From Mycolicibacterium sp. 018/SC-01/001 (GTDB lineage Bacteria > Actinomycetota > Actinomycetes > Mycobacteriales > Mycobacteriaceae), in assembly GCF_007096635.1 (NCBI RefSeq), contig NZ_VKAA01000004.1, positions 186,001 through 250,000 on the forward strand: 64,000 bases of DNA, in the 5' to 3' direction. The notes under the pieces are model-generated. The model saw only the letters and a program-made list of their open reading frames with translations, was not told where the DNA came from and did not search any database. The first letter of the stretch is position 1. The number at the start of each line of letters is the position of its first letter. Positions 1-12,204 of this stretch are shown here, piece after piece. Made by a program: the position numbers and the translations under genes.

Positions 1-3000
1 TTCGATGTGCCAGCCGCGGGCACGATCCGGCGGAACGGCCAGCAGGATGGCCTGCGGTGCCCGCGCATCCGGACGAGCGGTGTGGAAGGCCACCCCCGCG
101 ACCTCCTCGGCGGTGCCGCGTTCGCGACCCTCACGAGGGAGCACCTCGGACCACATGTCGAAGACGATGCCCGTCAGGGCCGACCCGGCCGGCTCGCGGT
201 CGACAACCAGCACGGTCGAGGCCCGCGCGTCAGCGCGTCCAGTGGCGATCCAGGATGGTGCGGGGGCGGCGGGGGCCTGTGTGACGACGAAGTTGGGGGT
301 GGCCCCGCCCGCGATGAGCTCGGTGGCCGCCAGCGCATCGTCGGCGGATCGGACCGTGGGCCGGACGCGTCCGATGTCGCGAACCCAGTCGGCGAGTTCG
401 TCGCCTTCTGCGCCCGTAGGCCGGTGCTGCTTGTCCAGGAGCACGTCGATTCCGCTGGCGACCGAACTGAGCCGCGGCAGCAGGGGGATACCGCCGCCGG
501 TGAGCGCGGTCAGCGAGGCCGTGACGGCGCTGATCCACGCCAGGGTGCTCGTCGAGTCACGTCCGGCACCTGAGGGCGGTTCCGGACAGGACTCGATCAC
601 CTTGGCGCCGGCGACCACCGCGGCGAGGTCGGGGGCCAGGCGGCTCAACTGATCGGTGTCGGCCAGATCGGTGTCGGCGGGCACGGCCAGTCCGCAGCCG
701 ATCAGCTCCGTGACAGCAGTCCTCAGCCCGCCGGGGTCGGCTTGGCCACTCGAAAGCACCTCCGTCGCCCGGCGGACACGCGCACTCCATGCGGTGATGC
801 GCTGTGCCATCTCGCCCAGGTCCGCAGCAGCCCACGGATCAGCCGCCGGATCGAAATGAGTTGCTAGCAGCGGAGTTCCGGCGGCAATCAGTGCCCGCAG
901 CGACGCAGCGAGAGTGACCAGTTCATCCCATCGACCCGCGCCACCCTCGTCGTCGGTGAACTCGACTGCGCCGGCGGCGGCGAGCAGTCGCCGCGCGAAG
1001 GTCGACTGACTCCCCGAGTCGACGGTCCGCACCGTTTCCAGCGCACCGGCTCCGAGCGCGGACAGCGGAGCGGTGACCGCGGTGCCGTCGCTGCGTCGGC
1101 AGCCGAACACCCACCTGTCGGCGGGGCCGAGGCGGGCGCGACACCAGTTCTCGAGTGCAGGTTCGACAGCAGCCAAACCGTTGTCGGCGTCCCAGCCGGT
1201 ACCCGCGTCGAACTCGTCGGTGAGAATTGCGCCGAATGTGTAGGACACGGTGTCGGCGCTGCGCGGCGTGGAGACAACAGCGAAGTCGTCGGGCAGCAGC
1301 CCGCGGCTGGACGCGTCGGCAGCCAAGCCAGCACGTAGCGGGTTACCGCCGACGATGTGATGAACGCTCTCGGCGAGCAGCAGATCTCCAACCGCGTCGA
1401 AGGTGGCGACGAGGTCGGCAACGATCTCTGTGACTGTGGGAAGTTCCGCCCCGACCGGTACAGGCGGATCTCCCAAGCTGAACCTCGAATAGTCGCGGCT
1501 GAGCGCCAATCCGTCGACGACGTTGCGGGCCGCCACGGCGGCCTGCGCCGCGCCGGCGTTCTCGGCCGATGGATCCACCTGCGGTGCCATCGGATACGTC
1601 TGCCGGAACGCGGGGATCAGATGGTCCATCGAGCGGTCATGAAGGGCTCGTTCGAAACGGTAACCCAGCAGATAATCCAGAGATTGGCCCGCCTTGATGC
1701 CTTCCAGTGTGTGCAGCGCCGTGCGCACACGGCCGGAGGTCAGGTTCACCGCGAACGCGGACGGGTCCGAGTGCGCCAGACAGCCTGCGCGCAACACCGC
1801 CGCGGTGGTGGCGTGCTGCATGGACGGTGTCACGAGGTAGCCGTCGCGCTGTGCCCGGCTATCGGGTGAGAGCGGTTCGAGGTCGGTCACCCATCCGTAG
1901 GCGCCAGTACGCAGTCCCGTGGGTTTCTCGGAGCGCACCTGAGTCAACCGGGCAGTGGCCAGGGAGGTGGCCCACGCATCGACGCGATGCGTCACGGTGT
2001 CCAGGCCTTCGCACAGCCTGCGCTCGAGGTCACCGAGTCGTTCGACGGCGATCGCCTCGAGTTCCACGGCGGTGGCCGTGGCCCTGGCCAAACCTTCGGC
2101 CAGAGGCCGCATTTCGTGATCGGCCGGCATCCTCGACGGATACGCGTACAACAGCGATACCCACCACATGCCGTGAAACAATGGCAGCGCCAACTGGTAG
2201 AACACGCCGCTGGTGGCCGGGTCGAGCTGGCTGCAGCTGTCGTTGACGGCCTTCAGCTTCCCGGCCAGCTCCGGTGGCCAGTCATTGATCTCACCACCGT
2301 CCGGGATCGTCGCGATCCACGCCTGAGTGTCGGCGATCATCTCGGCGTAGCTCTGGAGCGGGCGGCCGGCGGTGAAGGTGAGCAGTTCCGGCGTCGGGTC
2401 GATCGCCGCGCTGAAGTCGAAACCTGTTGGTGCAGAACCGATCGGACCGCGCATAGAGAACGTCATGCCGGTGTCGGCGGAGGCAATGCCGACCGTGGCC
2501 GGCGGGACGGCCGGGAAACTCTGGGTGAAGTCAGAGGACAGTTCCGAGGCGAAGCGCATTCGGGTCGATGCCGGGCGCCGGCTCAACAGGTCGAGGATGA
2601 CAGCATCCTGGTCGCGGCCCGTTCCCACTCGCTGAGCCCTCGACACGTTCTCCTTGAGATACGACAGGACGGAGGACATCACGATCGTGATCGCCTCGTG
2701 GACATCCTCGCCCCGCCAGAGATCGGTCGGCGTCACGGGCAGGATGCCGTACGGCTGGCGGCCGACGCGGAGCACCGGCAGAGGGTCGCGGCTACGGACG
2801 AACGAGCAGAAGTGATCGGTGAGAAAGGACAGGTCGGGCGGTGCGATTTTCCCGAATGACCCGCTCACCGGGAGCCAATCCGCTGAGAGATCGGTGAACA
2901 GAGCTCCCAGGAACTTGTTCGCTGCGGGCGCGAGGTCGTCGGGATCAGCGAGTCCGCCCGATATCGCCCCCAGCGTTCCCGCGGTGTCGATGCCGAGCGC

Positions 3001-4512
3001 GGTCGCGAGGCGCTGCGCCGCCGCGGTCGGTCCCGCACCCGCCACTGCGTTCTGTGCGGCGGTTCGCTCGTCCGGTGACGGATGGGGAAGTCGGGACTGC
3101 CACCCCGATCGGCTACCGGGCGTGTTGTTGGTGGGGGTGCCTGCGCTCAGGATCGACACCCCGTTGGTGTATTCGTGTGCAGCGAGCAGGGTCTCGACCT
3201 GTCGGACGGAGTCTTCAGGGTTGTCGGCGCCGACGCCGACCACGGTGAGGAGGTCGTAGTGCAGATCGGGATCGTTCAGCGGCACCTGCACCCCCATACC
3301 GACCCTGACAGCTTCGTCGAAGTCGACGAGCCACCGGCTGCCGCGCTGCCAGGGCACCGCGCCCGCTGGGTGGTCGTGCTCGTCGTCTTGGTCGATCTCG
3401 GGTGGAGCGAACCCTGCCGGTAGTTCGTCGGGAATGGGTTCGCCGTCGACCCGCCACATCAACCGGCCCTCGCGGTAGGCGGAGAACGTGAAGTGCCGCG
3501 GCATCAGGCGCGCGAGTGGGGCGCGCGTCCACGTGGTGTCGCGATTCTCAGCCCCCTGTCCCCCTGGTCGCAGCGACTGCACCGCCCATAGTCCCCGTGC
3601 GGGTCCGACCGTCGCCACCACCGCGGCCCACGCCGCGGCGCGCGCTGTCTCATCGGCGCCGGGAACGCCGACGGCACTCCAGTACTGCTCTGCTGCCGAG
3701 CGTTCGGCTGCGGTCAACCCGGTTTCGTGTCCGTCGATGTGAATGTCGTCGGGATAAACCCGGATCCACAGCTCGGCCCCGCCGAGCTTGCCCGGCTGGT
3801 ACAGGGTCTCGAGGCGAACAGGCAGGAGCAAGAGAGGAAGGTCGCCGTTGTCGGCCCAGATCGGCCCGGCAGCAGCGTCAGTGTTCCAGGTTGCTTCGAC
3901 GTCCTCGACGTGTCGTTGCGCCTCCATTGCCTCGTTGTCTGCGAAGGCCTTGGCGTTCTGGGCGTCGCCGGCTGCGGTGACGAAGGGCTCGCCGAACACC
4001 GACGCCGCTTTGTCCGCCGGGATGGAGTGGGTGCGCCTGAACAGATCGTCGGCGCGCGCCGCGGCGTTGTAGCTCGCACGCCATGCCGCTTCGCGTTGGC
4101 GACGGGCTTCGCGGATGGCACGACGCTGTTCTGGCATGTTCGGTGCCGATGTCTGCACAGGTGCGAGCAGGGACTCGAAGTCGGTGACGTGCTCGCCGTA
4201 GCGCTCATTCGATCCGTCGAGAATTGCACTCTTCAGCGAGTCGGTGCTCACGTCTTCCACACGATGCGGTGTCGATGCACCGGGCAGTTGTTCGTAGAAG
4301 CCGACGACGACGTCGATGTACACGTGCCGCTGCAGGGGCCGGGAGCCGAGAAGCTGCAGCAAAGCTGCAGCGAATGCGGGGTACTCGGTGAACTCGGGGT
4401 CGTTGAGCCACTCCAGCAGGTCGCTGCGGGGAACGCTGAAATCGACGCCGACCGCGTCCAGAGCGGCCAGCGTGGTCTCGGCGTCCATAGGAGCGTTGAC
4501 CGGCCCGGTCAT
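1..4512 (-). CDS. Giant conserved hypothetical protein (partial, >1504 aa; C-terminus beyond the left edge)
   Basis: I translated this minus-strand frame from position 4512 to the left edge by eye and met no stop, giving at least 1504 residues. The start is an ATG that overlaps the TGA of the 936-aa gene upstream (ATGA), so translation is probably coupled. No signal peptide, transmembrane segment or catalytic motif is visible. The N-terminus (DAETTLAALDAVGVDF) is acidic. An Arg/Ala-rich helical stretch lies near residues 120-150. A more family-like segment near residues 850-960 includes RTGAYGWVTDLEP and TPSMQHATTAAVLRAG, which I associate from memory with uncharacterised giant proteins of other bacteria. 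It is the last visible gene of a five-gene operon with an M23 peptidase and a hemopexin-repeat protein. Function is unknown; a structural role is inference from size and context. Confidence 0.85.
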   Translation of the reverse strand, partial: MTGPVNAPMDAETTLAALDAVGVDFSVPRSDLLEWLNDPEFTEYPAFAAALLQLLGSRPLQRHVYIDVVVGFYEQLPGASTPHRVEDVSTDSLKSAILDGSNERYGEHVTDFESLLAPVQTSAPNMPEQRRAIREARRQREAAWRASYNAAARADDLFRRTHSIPADKAASVFGEPFVTAAGDAQNAKAFADNEAMEAQRHVEDVEATWNTDAAAGPIWADNGDLPLLLLPVRLETLYQPGKLGGAELWIRVYPDDIHIDGHETGLTAAERSAAEQYWSAVGVPGADETARAAAWAAVVATVGPARGLWAVQSLRPGGQGAENRDTTWTRAPLARLMPRHFTFSAYREGRLMWRVDGEPIPDELPAGFAPPEIDQDDEHDHPAGAVPWQRGSRWLVDFDEAVRVGMGVQVPLNDPDLHYDLLTVVGVGADNPEDSVRQVETLLAAHEYTNGVSILSAGTPTNNTPGSRSGWQSRLPHPSPDERTAAQNAVAGAGPTAAAQRLATALGIDTAGTLGAISGGLADPDDLAPAANKFLGALFTDLSADWLPVSGSFGKIAPPDLSFLTDHFCSFVRSRDPLPVLRVGRQPYGILPVTPTDLWRGEDVHEAITIVMSSVLSYLKENVSRAQRVGTGRDQDAVILDLLSRRPASTRMRFASELSSDFTQSFPAVPPATVGIASADTGMTFSMRGPIGSAPTGFDFSAAIDPTPELLTFTAGRPLQSYAEMIADTQAWIATIPDGGEINDWPPELAGKLKAVNDSCSQLDPATSGVFYQLALPLFHGMWWVSLLYAYPSRMPADHEMRPLAEGLARATATAVELEAIAVERLGDLERRLCEGLDTVTHRVDAWATSLATARLTQVRSEKPTGLRTGAYGWVTDLEPLSPDSRAQRDGYLVTPSMQHATTAAVLRAGCLAHSDPSAFAVNLTSGRVRTALHTLEGIKAGQSLDYLLGYRFERALHDRSMDHLIPAFRQTYPMAPQVDPSAENAGAAQAAVAARNVVDGLALSRDYSRFSLGDPPVPVGAELPTVTEIVADLVATFDAVGDLLLAESVHHIVGGNPLRAGLAADASSRGLLPDDFAVVSTPRSADTVSYTFGAILTDEFDAGTGWDADNGLAAVEPALENWCRARLGPADRWVFGCRRSDGTAVTAPLSALGAGALETVRTVDSGSQSTFARRLLAAAGAVEFTDDEGGAGRWDELVTLAASLRALIAAGTPLLATHFDPAADPWAAADLGEMAQRITAWSARVRRATEVLSSGQADPGGLRTAVTELIGCGLAVPADTDLADTDQLSRLAPDLAAVVAGAKVIESCPEPPSGAGRDSTSTLAWISAVTASLTALTGGGIPLLPRLSSVASGIDVLLDKQHRPTGAEGDELADWVRDIGRVRPTVRSADDALAATELIAGGATPNFVVTQAPAAPAPSWIATGRADARASTVLVVDREPAGSALTGIVFDMWSEVLPREGRERGTAEEVAGVAFHTARPDARAPQAILLAVPPDRARGWHIE

Positions 4513-7319
4513 GAGTGAATCACCAATTCCGACGCGTGGATCAGCATCCGGAATGGTTTCTGCAGAGCGATTCTCGCCATGTCGGCGGCGTCTCGGTTCC
4601 ACTCCTTGTCACCCGGATTCTCGGGGCCCGCGAGCGTCGCACCGGCGCGAGCAAAAGGCCGTTCGCTCTTTGGGAGGGCGTCCAGTACTCGATCCCACGT
4701 GAGGTCGTCCCAGGTGGCGAATCCGGGCGCCTGAGCGGGACCGACATCGAAACCGAAGCGGATGCGCGTCGAGTTCTCCTGGAACGCGAAGAACCAGCCG
4801 GGTTCATCTCTGGTGGGCATTGTCCGCAACTCCTGGGATGGGATGCCGAAGGCGTACAACGCCGTCGACTCGTCGACGGGAAGGGTGAACAGAGGTGCGC
4901 GCCAAGACGCGGTGTCGGTGTTGGCGACCGGCCGGTCACCCTCAGCTGCGCCTGCTATCCCGGGAGCAGCCGCGACGATCATCGACGGGAATCGACGCAC
5001 GACGGTGCCCCGCACCAGCAGCACCGCGATGGCGTCCTCGCTCAGCGTCAGGTGGCTGCCCAGCGGACCTGACCACGAGGCGATCTCATCGATCTGGGGA
5101 TCTGCGTCCGGCACCGGCCAGAACCGCCGGAACGGCGTGCCTCGCATGTCTGTCGGGTACTCCCGCCAGAGCAGTTCGCGGTTGAATTCGTGGGCTGTGC
5201 CCACCAGGAACGACTCGATGAAGGCGTTGTTGACGCCCAGAAGAGTCGTCGATTCGGCAGGGAAGTCAGTGATGCCGGGCAGAAACCACTTCGGCGCGAA
5301 GTCCCGCAGTGCCAGTGCCATCGGAGCCGGGAACGATGGATGATCCATCAGAGGATCCAGCGATACCTGCGGACCCATCCGGTCGGGTACGGCGATCTGC
5401 GCGGCGATCGCACGCGCGATGTGACCCGCAGGTGCCAACGCACCGACGAGGTTGCTGCGCAGGACATTCGGATCGAGTTGCACCCCGCTGCTCGTCACCG
5501 CACCCCCGGTTTCGGTCGGCTCGGTGAGCTGCGCCCGCATCGTCGCGACGCTTGCGGTCACGTCGCCGAGTCGGGGCATCACCTGTGCACGCAGCGTGCT
5601 GAAGTCACCGACGCGTAGCGCAGTGGCGTCGACGCCGACACCGGACAGCTTTTCTGTCAGCAAGTCGGCGACATCGTGCAGTCCGATCACGCGGGCGACA
5701 TCCGAGATCGCTTGAAGACGAAGCAACTCGCGCGTGGCGGAAATCGAGCGTTGAGCGTCGACCGCCGCGGCCGTGACGGCACTCGCGATCGCCGGCGCAT
5801 CGACGTCGGGAACGGCAAATGACGGCGCGTGCCGCGCCGACGGTACCGGCACGGCGCCGGAGATGGCGCGTTCGATGACCGACCCTGCGCGAACGGATGC
5901 TGCCCGGGCGACCTGCCCGCCGGGCCGCATCATGCGAGCGAACGCGGTCGAGCCAGCGGCGGTGGGCATCACACTCACCTCGATGGTGGTGGCCAGAGAC
6001 GGCCCCGGCGGACCCCACGGTCGAACACGGGAGGCCATCGGCGCCGCGACCGAAACTGCCTCGCCGAGAGTGAGGTTGGCGACATGCTTCTCGTGAAGTG
6101 CCGCACTGACGTTTTCTGAGAGCTGGCCGAGCGCGCGCCGACGGTTCGCCTCGCGGATGGCGCCGACCTGCTCCCAGGCCCGGGCCATCATCGACTCCTG
6201 GTTGGCGCGAACGTATTCGGCGCCGAGCCCGGCGGCGATTCTGGTCGGGATGGAGGTGTTGAGCGTGTGCAACCATTCGGGAACATCCCCAGCGCTCGGA
6301 TCGAGCCTGTCGACGACCACATGTCGACCGCCGTAGATGGGGGGCGTGACTGCGGTGAACTCCTCACCCTCAGGGTCACGGGGTTCCCCGGCGCCTGTGT
6401 TGCACTGGGTCGTGATCCTCACGGCGAAGTCGTGGGTCACGGATTCCGAAAAAGCCGGCGCAGCAGTACCACCGGTGTCGAGCTGTCCGAGTACACCAGG
6501 GATCGGGTACAGAGCGGGGTGCGGAGCACCATCGAGTTCGTGGTCGTTCGGCCACGGCTTCGCGACGTCGACGAAGACCGTGCCCAGATGTGCGACGCGG
6601 TCGGGGGCGGCCGGCCCGAGTCGGCGGACCAGATATTCGAAATCACCGTGCTCGCCGGTCCCGAATTCCCAGGTGTAGTAGACCGGCACGTTCACGCCAC
6701 CGGCCTGATCGATCTGCCATGAGGGTGAATACGAATGGTCAGATGCAGAATAGATGAACGCCGGCACGATGCACGCGCGGTACCGGGTGGTGGCCTGCAG
6801 GAGCCGCGGGCACAGCAGGCGGGCGACATGATCGGCGGGGTCGTCGGCACGCTGGACGTGCGCCCAAGCCCACGAGTCGGACAGGTCGGGAAGCTGGCCG
6901 GCGTCGACGCTCAGCGTCGGAACGGGAACGCCTGGAACCAGACGGCTCGTGGCGACCTCGACGACCACGAGCACGATCCACGGCCGCAGGCGACCGCCGT
7001 CGGCCCTGGCCGGGGTGAACAACCACGGCAACTCGATCGGTCTGAGGTCGACCGACACCAGGTAGTTGTCCTCGACGTCGCCGGCGCCAGCAGCCGGGTC
7101 GGTTCGTACCACGGCACGGGGGTCGAGGCTCGCGACGCTCTCGGGCCCCAGCATCGTCATCGGCGCGGGAACGGCGACCGGGGTGCTGTGCCCCGACGAG
7201 TCGACCAGCGAAACGCCCGGGGTGAAGCCGGCGGCAGGGAGCGCGCCGGGCCGGTCAGGCGTATCGATGGCCTGACCCACTGCCGTCTGTGCCCATGACG
7301 AGAACCGGATCGTGCTCAC
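4509..7319 (-). CDS. Conserved hypothetical protein, 936 aa, middle gene of the giant-protein operon
   Basis: The frame stays open further upstream, but the likely start is the GTG at 7319 (protein start MSTIRFSSWAQTAVGQ). It overlaps the TGA of the DUF6603-type gene by 4 bp (GTGA). The extra upstream residues are Arg/Gly-rich antisense-like sequence, so I excluded them. The first half is mixed alpha/beta with many Trp, Tyr and Pro residues (for example DSWAWAHVQRADDPADHVARLL). Residues of roughly 440-650 are Ala-rich and probably helical. The C-terminal third is again globular and ends in LIHASELVIHS. I see no signal peptide, membrane segment or active-site motif. The tight coupling on both sides suggests near-stoichiometric production with its neighbours, perhaps as parts of one complex. 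No function can be assigned. Confidence 0.85.
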   Translation of the reverse strand: MSTIRFSSWAQTAVGQAIDTPDRPGALPAAGFTPGVSLVDSSGHSTPVAVPAPMTMLGPESVASLDPRAVVRTDPAAGAGDVEDNYLVSVDLRPIELPWLFTPARADGGRLRPWIVLVVVEVATSRLVPGVPVPTLSVDAGQLPDLSDSWAWAHVQRADDPADHVARLLCPRLLQATTRYRACIVPAFIYSASDHSYSPSWQIDQAGGVNVPVYYTWEFGTGEHGDFEYLVRRLGPAAPDRVAHLGTVFVDVAKPWPNDHELDGAPHPALYPIPGVLGQLDTGGTAAPAFSESVTHDFAVRITTQCNTGAGEPRDPEGEEFTAVTPPIYGGRHVVVDRLDPSAGDVPEWLHTLNTSIPTRIAAGLGAEYVRANQESMMARAWEQVGAIREANRRRALGQLSENVSAALHEKHVANLTLGEAVSVAAPMASRVRPWGPPGPSLATTIEVSVMPTAAGSTAFARMMRPGGQVARAASVRAGSVIERAISGAVPVPSARHAPSFAVPDVDAPAIASAVTAAAVDAQRSISATRELLRLQAISDVARVIGLHDVADLLTEKLSGVGVDATALRVGDFSTLRAQVMPRLGDVTASVATMRAQLTEPTETGGAVTSSGVQLDPNVLRSNLVGALAPAGHIARAIAAQIAVPDRMGPQVSLDPLMDHPSFPAPMALALRDFAPKWFLPGITDFPAESTTLLGVNNAFIESFLVGTAHEFNRELLWREYPTDMRGTPFRRFWPVPDADPQIDEIASWSGPLGSHLTLSEDAIAVLLVRGTVVRRFPSMIVAAAPGIAGAAEGDRPVANTDTASWRAPLFTLPVDESTALYAFGIPSQELRTMPTRDEPGWFFAFQENSTRIRFGFDVGPAQAPGFATWDDLTWDRVLDALPKSERPFARAGATLAGPENPGDKEWNRDAADMARIALQKPFRMLIHASELVIHS

Positions 7320-10258
7320 GATGTGCTCAACTCCCAGGCTTCGGCGACCTCGACGTGGACCCGTGGGTCCGCCGCGCTCGCGGCCGCGGCCGCCTCGTAC
7401 ACCTCGGTGGCGTTGGGTGACGGCTGTGCGATGTCCACGGCCTCGGACAGCGACCACGAGTTGACGACCACGTAGGTCGGTGAGTCCGCCACGGTCACGG
7501 TGTCGCGATCGGTGCGCCACCAGCGCGCGTGTTCCAGCCCGGCCCCGGCCGCTGCCTCCACCGCGTCGACCAGGGCGCCGACTTTCACGTCCAGGGTTTG
7601 GTTGACGTCGAACTGTTCCGAAATCACCTTTGTCTCGTAGTCGAAATCGGTGGCTCGCTCGTCCCCCAGCACGACCTCGCCTGCCACGAGCGTCAGCCCC
7701 GCCTTGAACATCTCGAACGCGGGACGGGCGATCTGTTCGTCGTCGGTCATCGTAAGGAATGCAGCCGGCGCGAACTGCTCACGTTCCTCGCCTCGGACCG
7801 GCGCGGGACGACCGTCGCCCAGAACCGGGCTGGTCACATCCCATCGCTGCTTCGGAATCGGAACGCGGTTGAAGCGGTCGATGTCGATGCCGAGTGGGAC
7901 GTCTTTCTGCCGCACGGACAGCGTGCCATGGGGGTGCAGGACGCGGCCGTCGGCCAACGCCGCTCCCGCCGGTACAGTGAGTTGCACCGGCAATGCAGAT
8001 GGGTCCGGCGCGTATGCGCGCCAGGCTTCCGGCTCGAGCAGCGCGGCTGTCAGAACCTCGCGAAGATCATCGGGTCCAACGGTCAGAGCGGGATCTGTTC
8101 CACCCCACGATTCGTCGAAATCGAAGGAGGCGCTGAACAAGAACAGGTCGACGCTGCCGCGCCCGACGGCGCGCCAGCGCCCTGGACCCTCCAGTGACAG
8201 GCGCAAGGCGATCCCGACCAGCGTCTCGCCGAGCACCTCGACAGCGATGGCGGCCGAGATCTCCGCAACGAAGTGAAACGGCGAGAACTGAATCAGCACA
8301 TCGAAACCCAGATGGCCGCGGAGGCCACAACCGGCCACCTCGGCGACGAGCTCGGCCAGTGCGCCGAATTGCAGGGTGTTGGATGTCAGAGCGACATAGG
8401 CGCTGCAGCGGAGTTGGAGGAACGGACCCGACGACAGCGTCAGAGAAACGCGTTTGAGAGCGGGCACTCCGGCCGGGCGGCTGTATCGCGGGTGGAAGCC
8501 GCCCGCAGAGACGACCACGTTCGCGTCGGAGCCGCCCTGTACGAGAACGAACATGTCTCCGGTGACGGGGATTCCGGCGATCGTCGAATCGGTCAGGCTG
8601 GCCAGGAACGTGAGGCTGGGTACCGATGGATCGATCTGCCCGAAGAACGTGATCTGCAGCTTGATCAACGGCAACGCTGGATCTGGCACGGCGAGGAGCA
8701 GTTTGCCGAGGATCGACAACCGGACGGGGTCCGGTAATTCAGCGATGAGGGCCACTGATCCCGTGAGAATGTTTCCACCCCAGCTGATCTGGAACATCGG
8801 ACCGACGATCACCGAACCGGGCGATCGAGGGAAGACACGGTCGAGCATCGGCACGACATCCCGCGCTGCTTTGGCCGGGTCGGTGGGGAAGAGCAGTGAA
8901 CCGGCGGTTCCGTCTTGGACTGCGCGGGTCAGCGCATCTCGGTCCAGACGCCGACTCACGCCGACGATGCCGCCGACACCGGTCACCGCGAACCCGAAAC
9001 CGATCTGGATACCGGGAAGCGGGAACGCCGCCCCGAGGACGACCAGAAGCGCCCCCGTGCGCACGTCGAGGGTACCCAGCGCGGTAACCGACATCGGCGT
9101 CATCTCGACCGACAACATGCCGGTGAATGCGTCGCCGATGCGGCTCATTTCACCGGCACCCTTGACGATCGGCAGCGCCAGACCGACATCAGCACCTGTC
9201 GGGGAGTGAGGCACCAGGTTGGCGAGATCGAAGGCGAGCGACGGGCCGCCCAGTCGGAACGGGACCTCGAAGCCGTTGCCATCGACATCGAGGTGGATCG
9301 GCACGGCGGGCAGGTCCAGGGCGATTGCGCAGGTGACGCGAACCCCCACGCTGGGTGGCTGCTCGAGTCGCGGCACGAGCTCCACGTCGAGCGGTCCCGT
9401 CTGGACTCCGGGCATCGAGGCGCCGGAGCAAAGCCTCACTGCCAACGTGGGACTGCCTGCGATGCTCACCCCGTCGGAGTCGGACAGTGCGAGGTCCACG
9501 TCCAGCGGGGTGGGTGCCAGCGCGGGGATGAGTCCCGCCAGGTCCCCGGGTGCCACGCGCACCTGACCATTCCGGATCTGCAGTCCCGCAGCGAGTTTCG
9601 GAGTGTCTCCATCGAGAGTCAACGCGGCGGTGAGCGCGATGTCGCCCAGGTCGATCCCGGGCCCGACGCCCGGAGCTGTTTTCTTGCGGACCAGGCCGAC
9701 CCGAATCGTGTCGCCGTTCGACCCCCGCGTCACCGTGGCATGCCCTGACGGAGGCAGGTGGATCTCGACGACGTCGGACGCGTGGCCGCCGATATCCAGG
9801 GACCAGACGTCGTCGATGGCCAGCGGCTCGTGTGCCGTCTTGTCACCCTTGGCGACGATGTCGAGGCGGGCGCCGTCGCCATCCTTCGTCACCACGACGG
9901 CTGCGGCGAACTGACCGCCGACGGCCACCATCTTCACGGCGCAGGCGATACCGCGATCGGCGGTGTGCCCGACTGGATCGGGTTCCCAACCGAACAGGCC
10001 ACCGAACGCTCCCGGACCGGCGACTCCGGCCAGCTTGCGCATGGCCGAGATAACTTGTTGTGTCACAGGATTGGCTGACATGCCGTCATCGACGGGCGCC
10101 AGTAGATGGTCGGCGAATCCGCAGTCCGCCCAGTCAGGTCCCGCCGGCCCGAGCGCAGGTAGGCCTGCAGTCCGCTCGAGCTCGGCCAGCGCATCCGCCA
10201 ACAGCTGAGTCAGGCTGGTGCGGAGCAACCGCAGCAATTCGGTACCGCTATCAGCCAC
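7316..10258 (-). CDS. DUF6603-type large beta-rich protein, 980 aa
   Basis: The start is the GTG at 10258 behind a G-rich ribosome site (AGAGGGGGCGAA). A short helical N-terminus (ELLRLLRTSLTQLLADALAEL) precedes a long run of alternating hydrophobic residues typical of extended beta structure. The core of about residues 370-720 (with GFGFAVTGVGGIVGVSRRLD, SLLFPTDPAKAARDVVPML and SWGGNILTGSVALIAELPDP) resembles the uncharacterised DUF6603 family, recognised from memory only. Residues of roughly 780-980 form a separate tail. There is no signal peptide or discrete transmembrane helix. It lies 27 bp after the M23 peptidase gene and overlaps the 936-aa gene (GTGA). The biochemical role of the family is unknown to me; a scaffold or lipid-contacting beta structure is speculation. 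Confidence 0.8.
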   Translation of the reverse strand: MADSGTELLRLLRTSLTQLLADALAELERTAGLPALGPAGPDWADCGFADHLLAPVDDGMSANPVTQQVISAMRKLAGVAGPGAFGGLFGWEPDPVGHTADRGIACAVKMVAVGGQFAAAVVVTKDGDGARLDIVAKGDKTAHEPLAIDDVWSLDIGGHASDVVEIHLPPSGHATVTRGSNGDTIRVGLVRKKTAPGVGPGIDLGDIALTAALTLDGDTPKLAAGLQIRNGQVRVAPGDLAGLIPALAPTPLDVDLALSDSDGVSIAGSPTLAVRLCSGASMPGVQTGPLDVELVPRLEQPPSVGVRVTCAIALDLPAVPIHLDVDGNGFEVPFRLGGPSLAFDLANLVPHSPTGADVGLALPIVKGAGEMSRIGDAFTGMLSVEMTPMSVTALGTLDVRTGALLVVLGAAFPLPGIQIGFGFAVTGVGGIVGVSRRLDRDALTRAVQDGTAGSLLFPTDPAKAARDVVPMLDRVFPRSPGSVIVGPMFQISWGGNILTGSVALIAELPDPVRLSILGKLLLAVPDPALPLIKLQITFFGQIDPSVPSLTFLASLTDSTIAGIPVTGDMFVLVQGGSDANVVVSAGGFHPRYSRPAGVPALKRVSLTLSSGPFLQLRCSAYVALTSNTLQFGALAELVAEVAGCGLRGHLGFDVLIQFSPFHFVAEISAAIAVEVLGETLVGIALRLSLEGPGRWRAVGRGSVDLFLFSASFDFDESWGGTDPALTVGPDDLREVLTAALLEPEAWRAYAPDPSALPVQLTVPAGAALADGRVLHPHGTLSVRQKDVPLGIDIDRFNRVPIPKQRWDVTSPVLGDGRPAPVRGEEREQFAPAAFLTMTDDEQIARPAFEMFKAGLTLVAGEVVLGDERATDFDYETKVISEQFDVNQTLDVKVGALVDAVEAAAGAGLEHARWWRTDRDTVTVADSPTYVVVNSWSLSEAVDIAQPSPNATEVYEAAAAASAADPRVHVEVAEAWELSTS

Positions 10259-10285
10259 TTCGCCCCCTCTGTTCGATGACTGGTG

Positions 10286-10831
10286 CTAACCGACCGCGGG
10301 CGACGAACCGTCTTGGAAGAAATCGACGGTCGCGCTGTCCGTGACAGTCAAACTCTGCATCAGGTCGTAGAGGCTGTCCACCCCGTGATAGTTCGCGGGT
10401 ACCAGGGCGCCGACGATCTCGACGAGTGCCATGTGCACGTGGGGCGATATGCCGCCGAATTCGTACACCGTTCCGAGGACATCGCCTCGTGAGATCTGCG
10501 ATCCGACGGCCAATCCGTCTGGCACATCACTGATGTGGGTGTAGAACCCACCCATCCCGTCGTTCGGTGAGCGCATGAACAACTGCGCGCCGTAACCCCG
10601 CCCGTTGGCTTCTGTTCCGTCTGCGGCTGGATCGTGGGGGTTGTACCGGGTGATGTGGGCATCGAACGCCGCGTACACGACGGTGCCCGCCGGCGCCCCG
10701 AGGTCCATCCCGTAGTGGTTGTACCAGTCCGACTGTGCGGCATGGCCACCTTGGCCGGGCCCGCCCAGGCCGCCGGTGAACGCACCGGCGTCGAAGACGC
10801 CGTTCATCTCGATCGAAAAGGGTGCAGCCAT
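10286..10831 (-). CDS. Leaderless M23/LytM-type peptidoglycan endopeptidase, 181 aa
   Basis: I start this gene at the ATG at 10831, behind AGGAGG that overlaps the stop codon of the hemopexin gene. A longer 501-aa reading of the frame has an Arg-rich, antisense-like N-terminus and is rejected. The protein shows the LytM zinc-site pattern: H39 and D43 in HYGMDLGAP, H99 in YTHIS, and H131-x-H133 in PHVHMAL. Known M23 enzymes with these residues cut peptide cross-bridges in peptidoglycan. The N-terminus (MAAPFSIEMNGVFDAG) is neither a signal peptide nor a lipobox, so the enzyme must be released by lysis, carried by a particle, or exported by a non-Sec route. It is second in the operon, between the hemopexin-repeat gene and the giant genes. 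Confidence 0.8.
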   Translation of the reverse strand: MAAPFSIEMNGVFDAGAFTGGLGGPGQGGHAAQSDWYNHYGMDLGAPAGTVVYAAFDAHITRYNPHDPAADGTEANGRGYGAQLFMRSPNDGMGGFYTHISDVPDGLAVGSQISRGDVLGTVYEFGGISPHVHMALVEIVGALVPANYHGVDSLYDLMQSLTVTDSATVDFFQDGSSPAVG

Positions 10832-10842
10832 CAGAGGTCCTC

Positions 10843-12204
10843 CTAAGCCAGTGCCGCGCGTACTTCGGCGGGAACATTCGGGTCGTCGCGGTTGAGTTCG
10901 ACACCGGGAACCCAGCCCTCCATGTCTTTCACCGCGTCCTGAACGGCGCTCATCTGGGCGTCGGTCAGCGTGCTGATGACCGTCGTCTCCGGAACGCCCG
11001 CCGCGGATGCCGCTTTGGCTCCGTAGACGTCGGGCTTGTTGTGTCCGTCCTCGGCAGGCGCCCATCGGTGAAACGCTTCGGTGATGCCCAGGTCTCGGTA
11101 GCGGCCTGCCGGCCATTGCTTCACACCCCAGTTCTTCGCGGGATAACCGCCTTCCAGGAGTACCCGCCTGACCGCCTCGCGGCCGGCTTGTTCGCTGGGG
11201 AACACGAGGAAGCTGTGCCAGTTGAACTTGTTCAGGTACTGGCCCCAGTTGGTTCCGTTCTTGACGCCGGTGATGTTGCCCGGGTTGTTGTCCAGCCACG
11301 CGAACGTTCCCGGAAAACCCGTCATGTGCGGCTGGCCGCGCCGAAGGACGCCATCGGCGTGCACGACGAAGTTGTAGATCTCCTTGCCGTGACCGCCGTA
11401 GTCCGTTTTGTCTTTCGGGTCGAGGTGTTTGCCGTCCAGTCCCTCGAACCAGTCGAATCGCGGAATGTCCTGTGCCACCGAAATTCTGCCATTCCAGTAC
11501 CAGACGTGATCGCCGGGTACCAAGCCGTTGATCGACGTCTGGTCGCCGCTGGACGCTCCGCCGCTCCCGCCGGTGAGCTTCAGCCACGCCGCGTCCACGC
11601 GACCTGCGAGGCCGGCACCGGCGAAGCCCGTCCAGTAATCCGCGGTGGGTAACGGATAGCCGTCGGCCACCCCGACACCGACCTCGTAGCGGACGTATTG
11701 ATCGCCCTTGAAGAAGTACGCGTTGCCGTTGTCCCACATCACCGCGCAGTCGATGTTGTCGCCGAAGCCGGCTTCGGCCAAACCCGGCCAATTGCCGGCA
11801 ATGGGACCGGACGCACTCGGATCGACGGTGTCAGTGGCGATGTCGTATTCGATGTAGCTGTCGCCGCGGAAGAAGTAGGCCTTACCGTTACCCCAGTTGA
11901 CTGCCGCCTGGATGGTGTCGCCGAAGCCGTTCTCGCCGAATCCGCCCCAGTTGCCGGCGATGGGACGGACCTCGCCGTCGACCGCGTTGGCGGCCTGATC
12001 GATCCGCACATAGTTCGATCCGAGGAACAGGTAGAGCTTGCCGTTCCCGAGATCGAAAGCACTGTCGAAGCCGCCCGCGAACCCCGTCGCATCGATACCC
12101 GACCATCCATTGCTGATCGGCTTGGGATATCCGCCGTCGACGCGGTCGGCCGCGGTGTCGTATCGCGAGTAGCTCCCGCCACTGGTGAAGTAGGCCTTGG
12201 CCAT
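10843..12204 (-). CDS. Hemopexin-repeat protein with a C-terminal lysozyme/P5-like domain, 453 aa
   Basis: The ATG at 12204 follows GAGGGGCGCATC. Residues 1-208 hold four hemopexin-like repeats of about 50 residues (near 1-51, 55-104, 107-157 and 160-208), each with a GxAYFFxGDxYxxYD-like strand and a GNWxGFxxxGFGDxxDAA-like end. The fold recalls insect-pathogen photopexins. After a Gly/Ser linker (about 212-220) comes a second domain of roughly 225-400. It contains LDNNPGNITG (304-313), a motif I associate with phage peptidoglycan-degrading or structural P5-like proteins, followed by a Trp-rich segment. There is no signal peptide. It is the first gene of the operon, with the M23 peptidase 11 bp downstream. 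A ligand-binding or targeting module joined to a wall-acting domain is inference. Confidence 0.8.
   Translation of the reverse strand: MAKAYFTSGGSYSRYDTAADRVDGGYPKPISNGWSGIDATGFAGGFDSAFDLGNGKLYLFLGSNYVRIDQAANAVDGEVRPIAGNWGGFGENGFGDTIQAAVNWGNGKAYFFRGDSYIEYDIATDTVDPSASGPIAGNWPGLAEAGFGDNIDCAVMWDNGNAYFFKGDQYVRYEVGVGVADGYPLPTADYWTGFAGAGLAGRVDAAWLKLTGGSGGASSGDQTSINGLVPGDHVWYWNGRISVAQDIPRFDWFEGLDGKHLDPKDKTDYGGHGKEIYNFVVHADGVLRRGQPHMTGFPGTFAWLDNNPGNITGVKNGTNWGQYLNKFNWHSFLVFPSEQAGREAVRRVLLEGGYPAKNWGVKQWPAGRYRDLGITEAFHRWAPAEDGHNKPDVYGAKAASAAGVPETTVISTLTDAQMSAVQDAVKDMEGWVPGVELNRDDPNVPAEVRAALA

Follow-up and report, generated by a model that had tools for sequence, protein, structure and literature searches.

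Related systems and overview

The four-gene cassette C-B-A-D of Mycolicibacterium sp. 018/SC-01/001, three genes of which lie in a 64,000-nucleotide stretch of contig NZ_VKAA01000004.1 (positions 186001-250000, here called the window), resembles several described systems in part. Polymorphic toxin and effector systems work in a similar way, the likeness being a constant part combined with exchangeable effector genes and, here, a domain common to different effectors. The cassette differs from them in that the constant part consists of four giant proteins rather than a known secretion pathway, and in that the effectors are separate upstream genes and carry no leader. Extracellular contractile injection systems, examples of which are PVC, Afp and the Streptomyces system, share with the cassette a leaderless multi-gene operon, LysM and hydrolase accessories and the idea of a cargo, but the home genome has no sheath match, and Pfam and PHROG searches of the operon proteins gave no match to a tube, a spike or an AAA+ protein. 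Protein C is a full member of DUF6603 (PF20248), a family without function; the difference is that DUF6603 also occurs without the cassette. No description of the cassette around DUF6603 was found in the literature searched, at the level of listings and abstract openings.

A, B, C and D are a real, widespread and undescribed system of four co-inherited proteins with exchangeable partners. The initial annotation had proposed a single undescribed system of five genes, to be checked by a survey of gene neighbourhoods. This holds for the three giant proteins, which are conserved together and co-inherited, but the conserved unit adds D, which lies outside the window, and the two smaller genes (hemopexin and M23) are lineage-specific occupants of a variable slot.

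The home operon

Gene calling, extended from the window into the neighbouring stretches, confirmed the five end-to-end minus-strand open reading frames (ORFs) that had been described, with their sizes (453, 181, 980, 936 and more than 1504 amino acids) and junctions; the starts of B and A are those marked by the overlaps. In order of position, the genes are as follows.

1 to 4512, minus strand (the gene runs on past the left edge of the window, and its stop codon lies 138 bases beyond, at contig position 185863): A, 1549 amino acids from its ATG, the largest core protein, with no known family or fold match
4509 to 7319, minus strand: B, a core protein of 936 amino acids with no known family; 4-base overlap with A
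7316 to 10258, minus strand: C, a core protein of 980 amino acids, DUF6603 (PF20248); 4-base overlap with B
10286 to 10831, minus strand: M23 endopeptidase gene of the variable slot, 181 amino acids, leaderless, metal-binding motifs present
10843 to 12204, minus strand: hemopexin gene of the variable slot, 453 amino acids, four hemopexin repeats and a C-terminal muramidase-like region

The hemopexin and M23 genes are 11 bases apart, and 27 bases separate the M23 gene from C. To the left, where a search for sheath, AAA-ATPase or secretion genes had been suggested, the operon does continue, and the genes found there are D (557 amino acids, after a 9-base gap from A) and, after a 1-base gap, a gene for a 481-residue transglycosylase-like protein, whose SLT match is weak (Pfam E 0.0046, below cut-off; PHROG transglycosylase E 0.0005).

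Conservation and co-inheritance of the cassette

A protein search with A gave 756 relatives, of which 120 are listed; the names among the matches listed are mostly “hypothetical protein”, with some “LysM” or “FUSC”. In an alignment-based scan of representative genomes with A, 289 coding places were obtained, and the best 80 of these (78 distinct loci) were taken. When the flanking genes were clustered, four large families emerged, present in 64, 59, 53 and 50 loci. A fifth, seen in 10 loci that do not include the home locus, is probably a misread, since by position it runs antisense over C.

By a six-frame profile search of the 78 loci and the home locus (n = 79), all four genes are present in 71, with the remainder being ABC (3), ABD (1), AB (1) and AD (3). 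Contig ends truncate seven of these eight; the real exception is L070, which has upstream DNA without B or C. The order C-B-A-D on one strand is found in 70 of the 71 complete loci (69 in a strict recount by best C), B and C being inverted in L024. The count for L079 uses the first of its two C copies; the other lies downstream of the first cassette, as does an M64-like ORF (L079:867-24546), and the two may mark the beginning of a second cassette in tandem.

To avoid a choice of loci based on A, sampling was also done by C, through a DUF6603 search of 396 genomes of the phylum. DUF6603 is present in 12 of these, including the home genome, and within the genus in one of ten listed genomes, the home one. 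In the other 11 DUF6603 loci (short stretches), B adjoins C in 8. Eight of the 11 were extended: four have all four genes, one is cut by a contig end, and three are other contexts, where the DUF6603 ORFs have 1545, 3280 and 1022 codons (L095, L096 and L102, respectively) and where L096 has a weak match to B (41 bits).

The cassette is present across many bacterial phyla and in the two haloarchaea examined. The latter are among 16 plasmid records that match, and both (L103, L104) keep the order C-B-A-D, with C, B, A and D confirmed by profiles. Their annotation reads, in order, DUF6603, hypothetical, “BGTF surface domain” and “lamin tail domain” proteins, and one of the two has a slot gene in front. 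Two further records are set down here as observations. On Rhizobium lusitanum plasmid p_3 (L106), in the vicinity of a gene with a CVNH domain, the core is divided among a larger number of smaller genes (profile order CBBAAD). A bacteriophage record from human faeces that is marked UNVERIFIED (MT835531, L105) has matches to A, B, C and D; the DNA may come from a bacterium, or the cassette may be carried by a phage.

Pairwise distances of A, B, C and D correlate at 0.923-0.968 over 77 loci (maximum 0.144 in 500 permutations), values that common ancestry alone would also raise. The genes are closely coupled: the nearest in-frame start lies between -20 and +30 bases from the upstream stop in 35 of 43 C-B, 45 of 55 B-A, 41 of 47 A-D and 29 of 38 slot-C junctions, and A and D occupy a single ORF in 15 of the 79 loci (7 by a stricter envelope test). 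Phyla are intermingled on the core tree (84 rows, FastTree), where Nitrospira, Acidobacteria and Chloroflexi interleave and Actinomycetota sit in separate places; this pattern points to horizontal transfer of the cassette.

The variable slot upstream of C

The gene directly upstream of C varies in kind between loci. Pfam searches of slot representatives gave M64, PhoD, phospholipase D (PLD), S8, beta-lactamase-like and WD40 proteins, together with a trypsin-like match below the cut-off. Among 44 slot or next-upstream proteins scanned, the counts were WD40 8, PhoD 7 and M64 6 (25 of 48 families shown). A phmmer census of the 68 loci with at least 1.2 kilobases of upstream DNA recognised the slot in 43, with ten types: WD40 (13), PhoD (9), M64 (7), trypsin-like (4), PLD (3), M23 (2), hemopexin-muramidase (2), S8 (1), hemopexin (1) and beta-lactamase-like (1).

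Mapped on the A tree, the slot type requires at least 15 changes among 46 labelled loci, the minimum being 8. There are 13 changes among 43 loci when the labels of L047, L051 and L083 are dropped, and 11 among 39 loci with 8 states when four further weak labels are dropped; these labels predate the phmmer census and differ from it in places (e.g., L026 and L053). Two contigs of Nitrospira sp. LK70 (L060 and L067) have different occupants, PLD and PhoD, respectively.

The slot proteins were also checked for the motifs of their families. Two HKD motifs are present in all three PLD proteins, HExxH in 6 of 8 M64-like proteins, and, for the PhoD-like proteins, GDQ-Y in 9 of 9, GDxHxG in 7 of 9 and (W/L)DDHE in 4 of 9. 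The M64-like slot genes of two Verrucomicrobium loci (L057, L064) have no HExxH, and may encode a pseudo-enzyme kept as a binding module. Of the S8-labelled slot proteins, three were tested, two of them truncated at contig or locus ends, and none fitted any of the simple patterns.

In the home locus the putative exchangeable cargo consists of predicted cell-wall hydrolases, and is thus predicted to cut the bacterial cell wall. The hemopexin repeats and M23 domain that had been reported are both borne out above the Pfam cut-offs: Hemopexin matches the 453-residue protein in four stretches (E 1.1e-32), with residues 306-430 forming a muramidase-like region (PHROG endolysin, E 0.001), and Peptidase_M23 matches the 181-residue protein (E 8.2e-10), the motifs of which are kept. 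Mycobacterium sp. PS03-16 (L006) has hemopexin-muramidase, M23 and transglycosylase-like genes at the corresponding positions, and genes of all three kinds lie around the cassette of L101, a genome of the same family, while L009 and L011 have M23 without the other two. By gene clustering, the hemopexin protein has a relative in 1 of the 78 other loci. From this recurrence, the wall-hydrolase cargo looks like an actinobacterial variant.

A C-terminal domain shared by slot proteins

Trypsin-like and S8 slot proteins have in common a C-terminal region of approximately 135 residues (cross-class BLASTP E down to 1e-15). By profile it occurs in 11 ORFs of nine loci (L047, L051, L052, L054, L065, L072, L073, L080 and L083), where it is C-terminal or nearly so, or stands alone, as in the 133-residue product of L072:1470-1868; nine of the 11 ORFs built the first model and so match by construction. 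The Pfam scans made gave no name for this domain. With the domain removed, the N-terminal parts fall into a protease-like family (L047, L052, L054 and L072, with GDSGA in L052 and L054) and an S8 family by Pfam (L073 and L080); L051 and L083 belong to neither, and L065 matches the protease-like one weakly. A database search with the C-terminal region of L073 gave 14 proteins, 11 of them with PF00082.

A second kind of linkage is found in eight actinobacterial loci, where a kelch propeller forms the C-terminus of C and a second kelch ORF comes next. The common C-terminal domain, possibly a docking domain, and the kelch-C fusions are the strongest reasons for assuming physical contact between the slot proteins and the core.

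Core proteins

The three largest proteins of the window had been described as having no known function. A and B indeed have no Pfam match at E 1, but C does have a family, DUF6603, which is itself without function (321.8 bits against a curated cut-off of 27, E 9.1e-96, residues 307-840). For A, B and D, nothing was found in Pfam or PADLOC, no NCBIfam model came near its cut-off, and the best PHROG match was at E 0.07. Structural searches gave a similar result: fold searches with an AlphaFold2 (AF2) model of A (residues 200-1399) gave no PDB match, the PDB profile search for B was empty, and that for C gave no usable sequence match.

The model of C (pTM 0.54) takes the form of a long amphipathic beta-meander, which resembles the beta-belt of ApoB100 and outer-membrane beta-barrels. 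C differs from these in being leaderless and in its lack of a usable sequence match, and the query-normalised TM-scores in the Foldseek list are at most 0.16, with root-mean-square deviations (rmsd) of about 10 Å for the leading rows of a second look, so that the likeness is one of common arrangement only. In two Algoriphagus loci (L063, L066) C carries an N-terminal extension of self-similar beta-type repeats, which suggests that the meander grows by repeat addition. The predicted meander bears on one of the two main rivals of the reading that we prefer (below), namely a machine for handling lipids or other hydrophobes, in which C would bind lipid as a beta-belt or groove, the other three core proteins would build a particle, and PhoD, PLD and esterases of the slot would remodel its load. 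We consider this unlikely, given the low fold scores and the presence in the slot of wall hydrolases, proteases and WD40 proteins, which do not fit lipid chemistry.

Recognisable add-on domains are of surface type. LysM and phage-tail-X were found in 1 of 29 A proteins scanned (with more among the listed A relatives), and PKD in 1 of 34 B proteins, and the haloarchaeal core proteins are those annotated with lamin-tail and BGTF surface domains. The LysM and phage-tail-X domains on some A proteins, together with the hemopexin and LytM-like accessories, would fit a contractile injection system that has degenerated, or an accessory element of one, as the initial annotation had considered, and the sheath model matches somewhere in the genomes of 5 of 10 relatives (4 above cut-off; genome-wide, at any position). 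The other five relatives have no sheath match, however, and PF04984 matches nothing in the home genome, in agreement with the initial annotation, while the same search was positive in 3 of 14 control genomes. The E 0.07 match mentioned above is the only tail-family match of any core protein. The inner tube model PF06841 had no match in the home genome, and none in any control genome either; no baseplate, spike or AAA+ ATPase was found in the seven operon proteins (Pfam, PHROGs) or nine neighbours (Pfam), no search dedicated to baseplates having been made. This explanation was already disfavoured, and we regard it as very improbable.

Cellular location and neighbouring genes

No hydrophobic N-terminal segment was found in any of 64 A, 59 B, 54 C and 50 D proteins by a Kyte-Doolittle rule, which is a crude proxy and not a signal-peptide program; within that measure, the reported absence of signal peptides is upheld. 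Slot proteins are leaderless in 32 of 34 cases, with the other two passing a shorter-window rule. Many of them come from families whose usual site of action is extracellular. Leaderless core and cargo, combined with surface-type add-on domains (LysM, hemopexin, lamin-tail, BGTF surface), lead us to infer release by lysis or by an unknown export route.

Past the gene of the 481-residue protein lie two divergent genes, for an alpha/beta-hydrolase-like protein and for a subtilase that keeps its motifs. The subtilase matches PADLOC “subtilase” and, weakly, IetS, and is one reason to weigh the other main rival, an intracellular defence (conflict) system in which A-D would recognise an invader within the cytoplasm and set free or switch on the hydrolase of the variable slot, so that the host cell is killed or arrested. 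The leaderless core and effectors, the swappable hydrolases and the patchy spread within phylum and genus described above would all agree with such a system. Against it, A, B, C and D match no PADLOC family at E 0.01, no NTPase or sensor domain exceeded the cut-off in the members scanned (home A-D, 29 A and 34 B), some members carry surface-type domains, and some slots have beta-propellers with no recognised enzyme. On balance, a defence role appears improbable.

Farther left of the window, at contig positions 177235-178812 on the minus strand (L002:11235-12812), is a gene for a leaderless protein of 525 amino acids, beside a CARDB-like gene of 114 amino acids. It has no Pfam match and no usable PDB sequence match; judged by eye from its aromatic and glycine signature, it may be MACPF-like.

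A proposed chassis with exchangeable cargo

The most economical reading of these data is that C-B-A-D is a leaderless chassis complex that carries exchangeable enzyme or propeller cargo, which we put forward tentatively, at slightly under an even chance. In such a complex, A, B, C and D would bind one another into a single assembly, and the upstream slot proteins would dock on this core, through the common C-terminal domain where it is present. The amphipathic beta-sheet of C would contact lipid, membrane or a partner sheet, and, once freed by lysis or by an unknown export step, the loaded complex would act on the envelope polymers of debris or of other cells. A more specific version is possible but doubtful: an undescribed machine of Bacteria and Archaea, with four giant proteins that form a chassis around an amphipathic beta-sheet protein of the ApoB kind. 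It would leave the cell without a known secretion signal and be armed by swapping of the slot gene (for wall hydrolases, phospholipase D, PhoD, proteases or propellers), in some lineages by way of a common C-terminal docking domain.

Several observations weigh against the chassis reading. The slot protein is unrecognised in 25 of the 68 loci, partly from weak gene calling, and motif retention is incomplete, since the two Verrucomicrobium M64-like proteins have no HExxH and the PhoD motifs past the first are not in every member. At the profile level, no domain is common to the PhoD, M64, PLD and WD40 slot proteins, and none of them has the ~135-residue one, so that a single docking mode may not apply to all, and the home hemopexin-muramidase and transglycosylase-like proteins have no common module. 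Three of the eight extended DUF6603 loci (L095, L096, L102) have no cassette. As to location, the surface-type domains are rare (the single LysM and PKD cases above), an internal 19-residue window exceeds 2.0 in 6 of 59 B and 9 of 54 C proteins, and A of the haloarchaeal locus L104 passes the shorter-window rule by a hydrophobic stretch around residue 40; the cargo may also have a cytosolic role.

A fixed-order set of four large proteins with no known function, apparently spread by gene transfer across many phyla and into haloarchaea, is a rare kind of gap. Should the cassette encode a complex that carries cargo, microbes would have a novel route for delivering or displaying enzymes that lack a secretion signal, and cargo loading could be approached directly through the common C-terminal domain. 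If its role is instead in defence or lipid handling, it would still be a widespread undescribed system.

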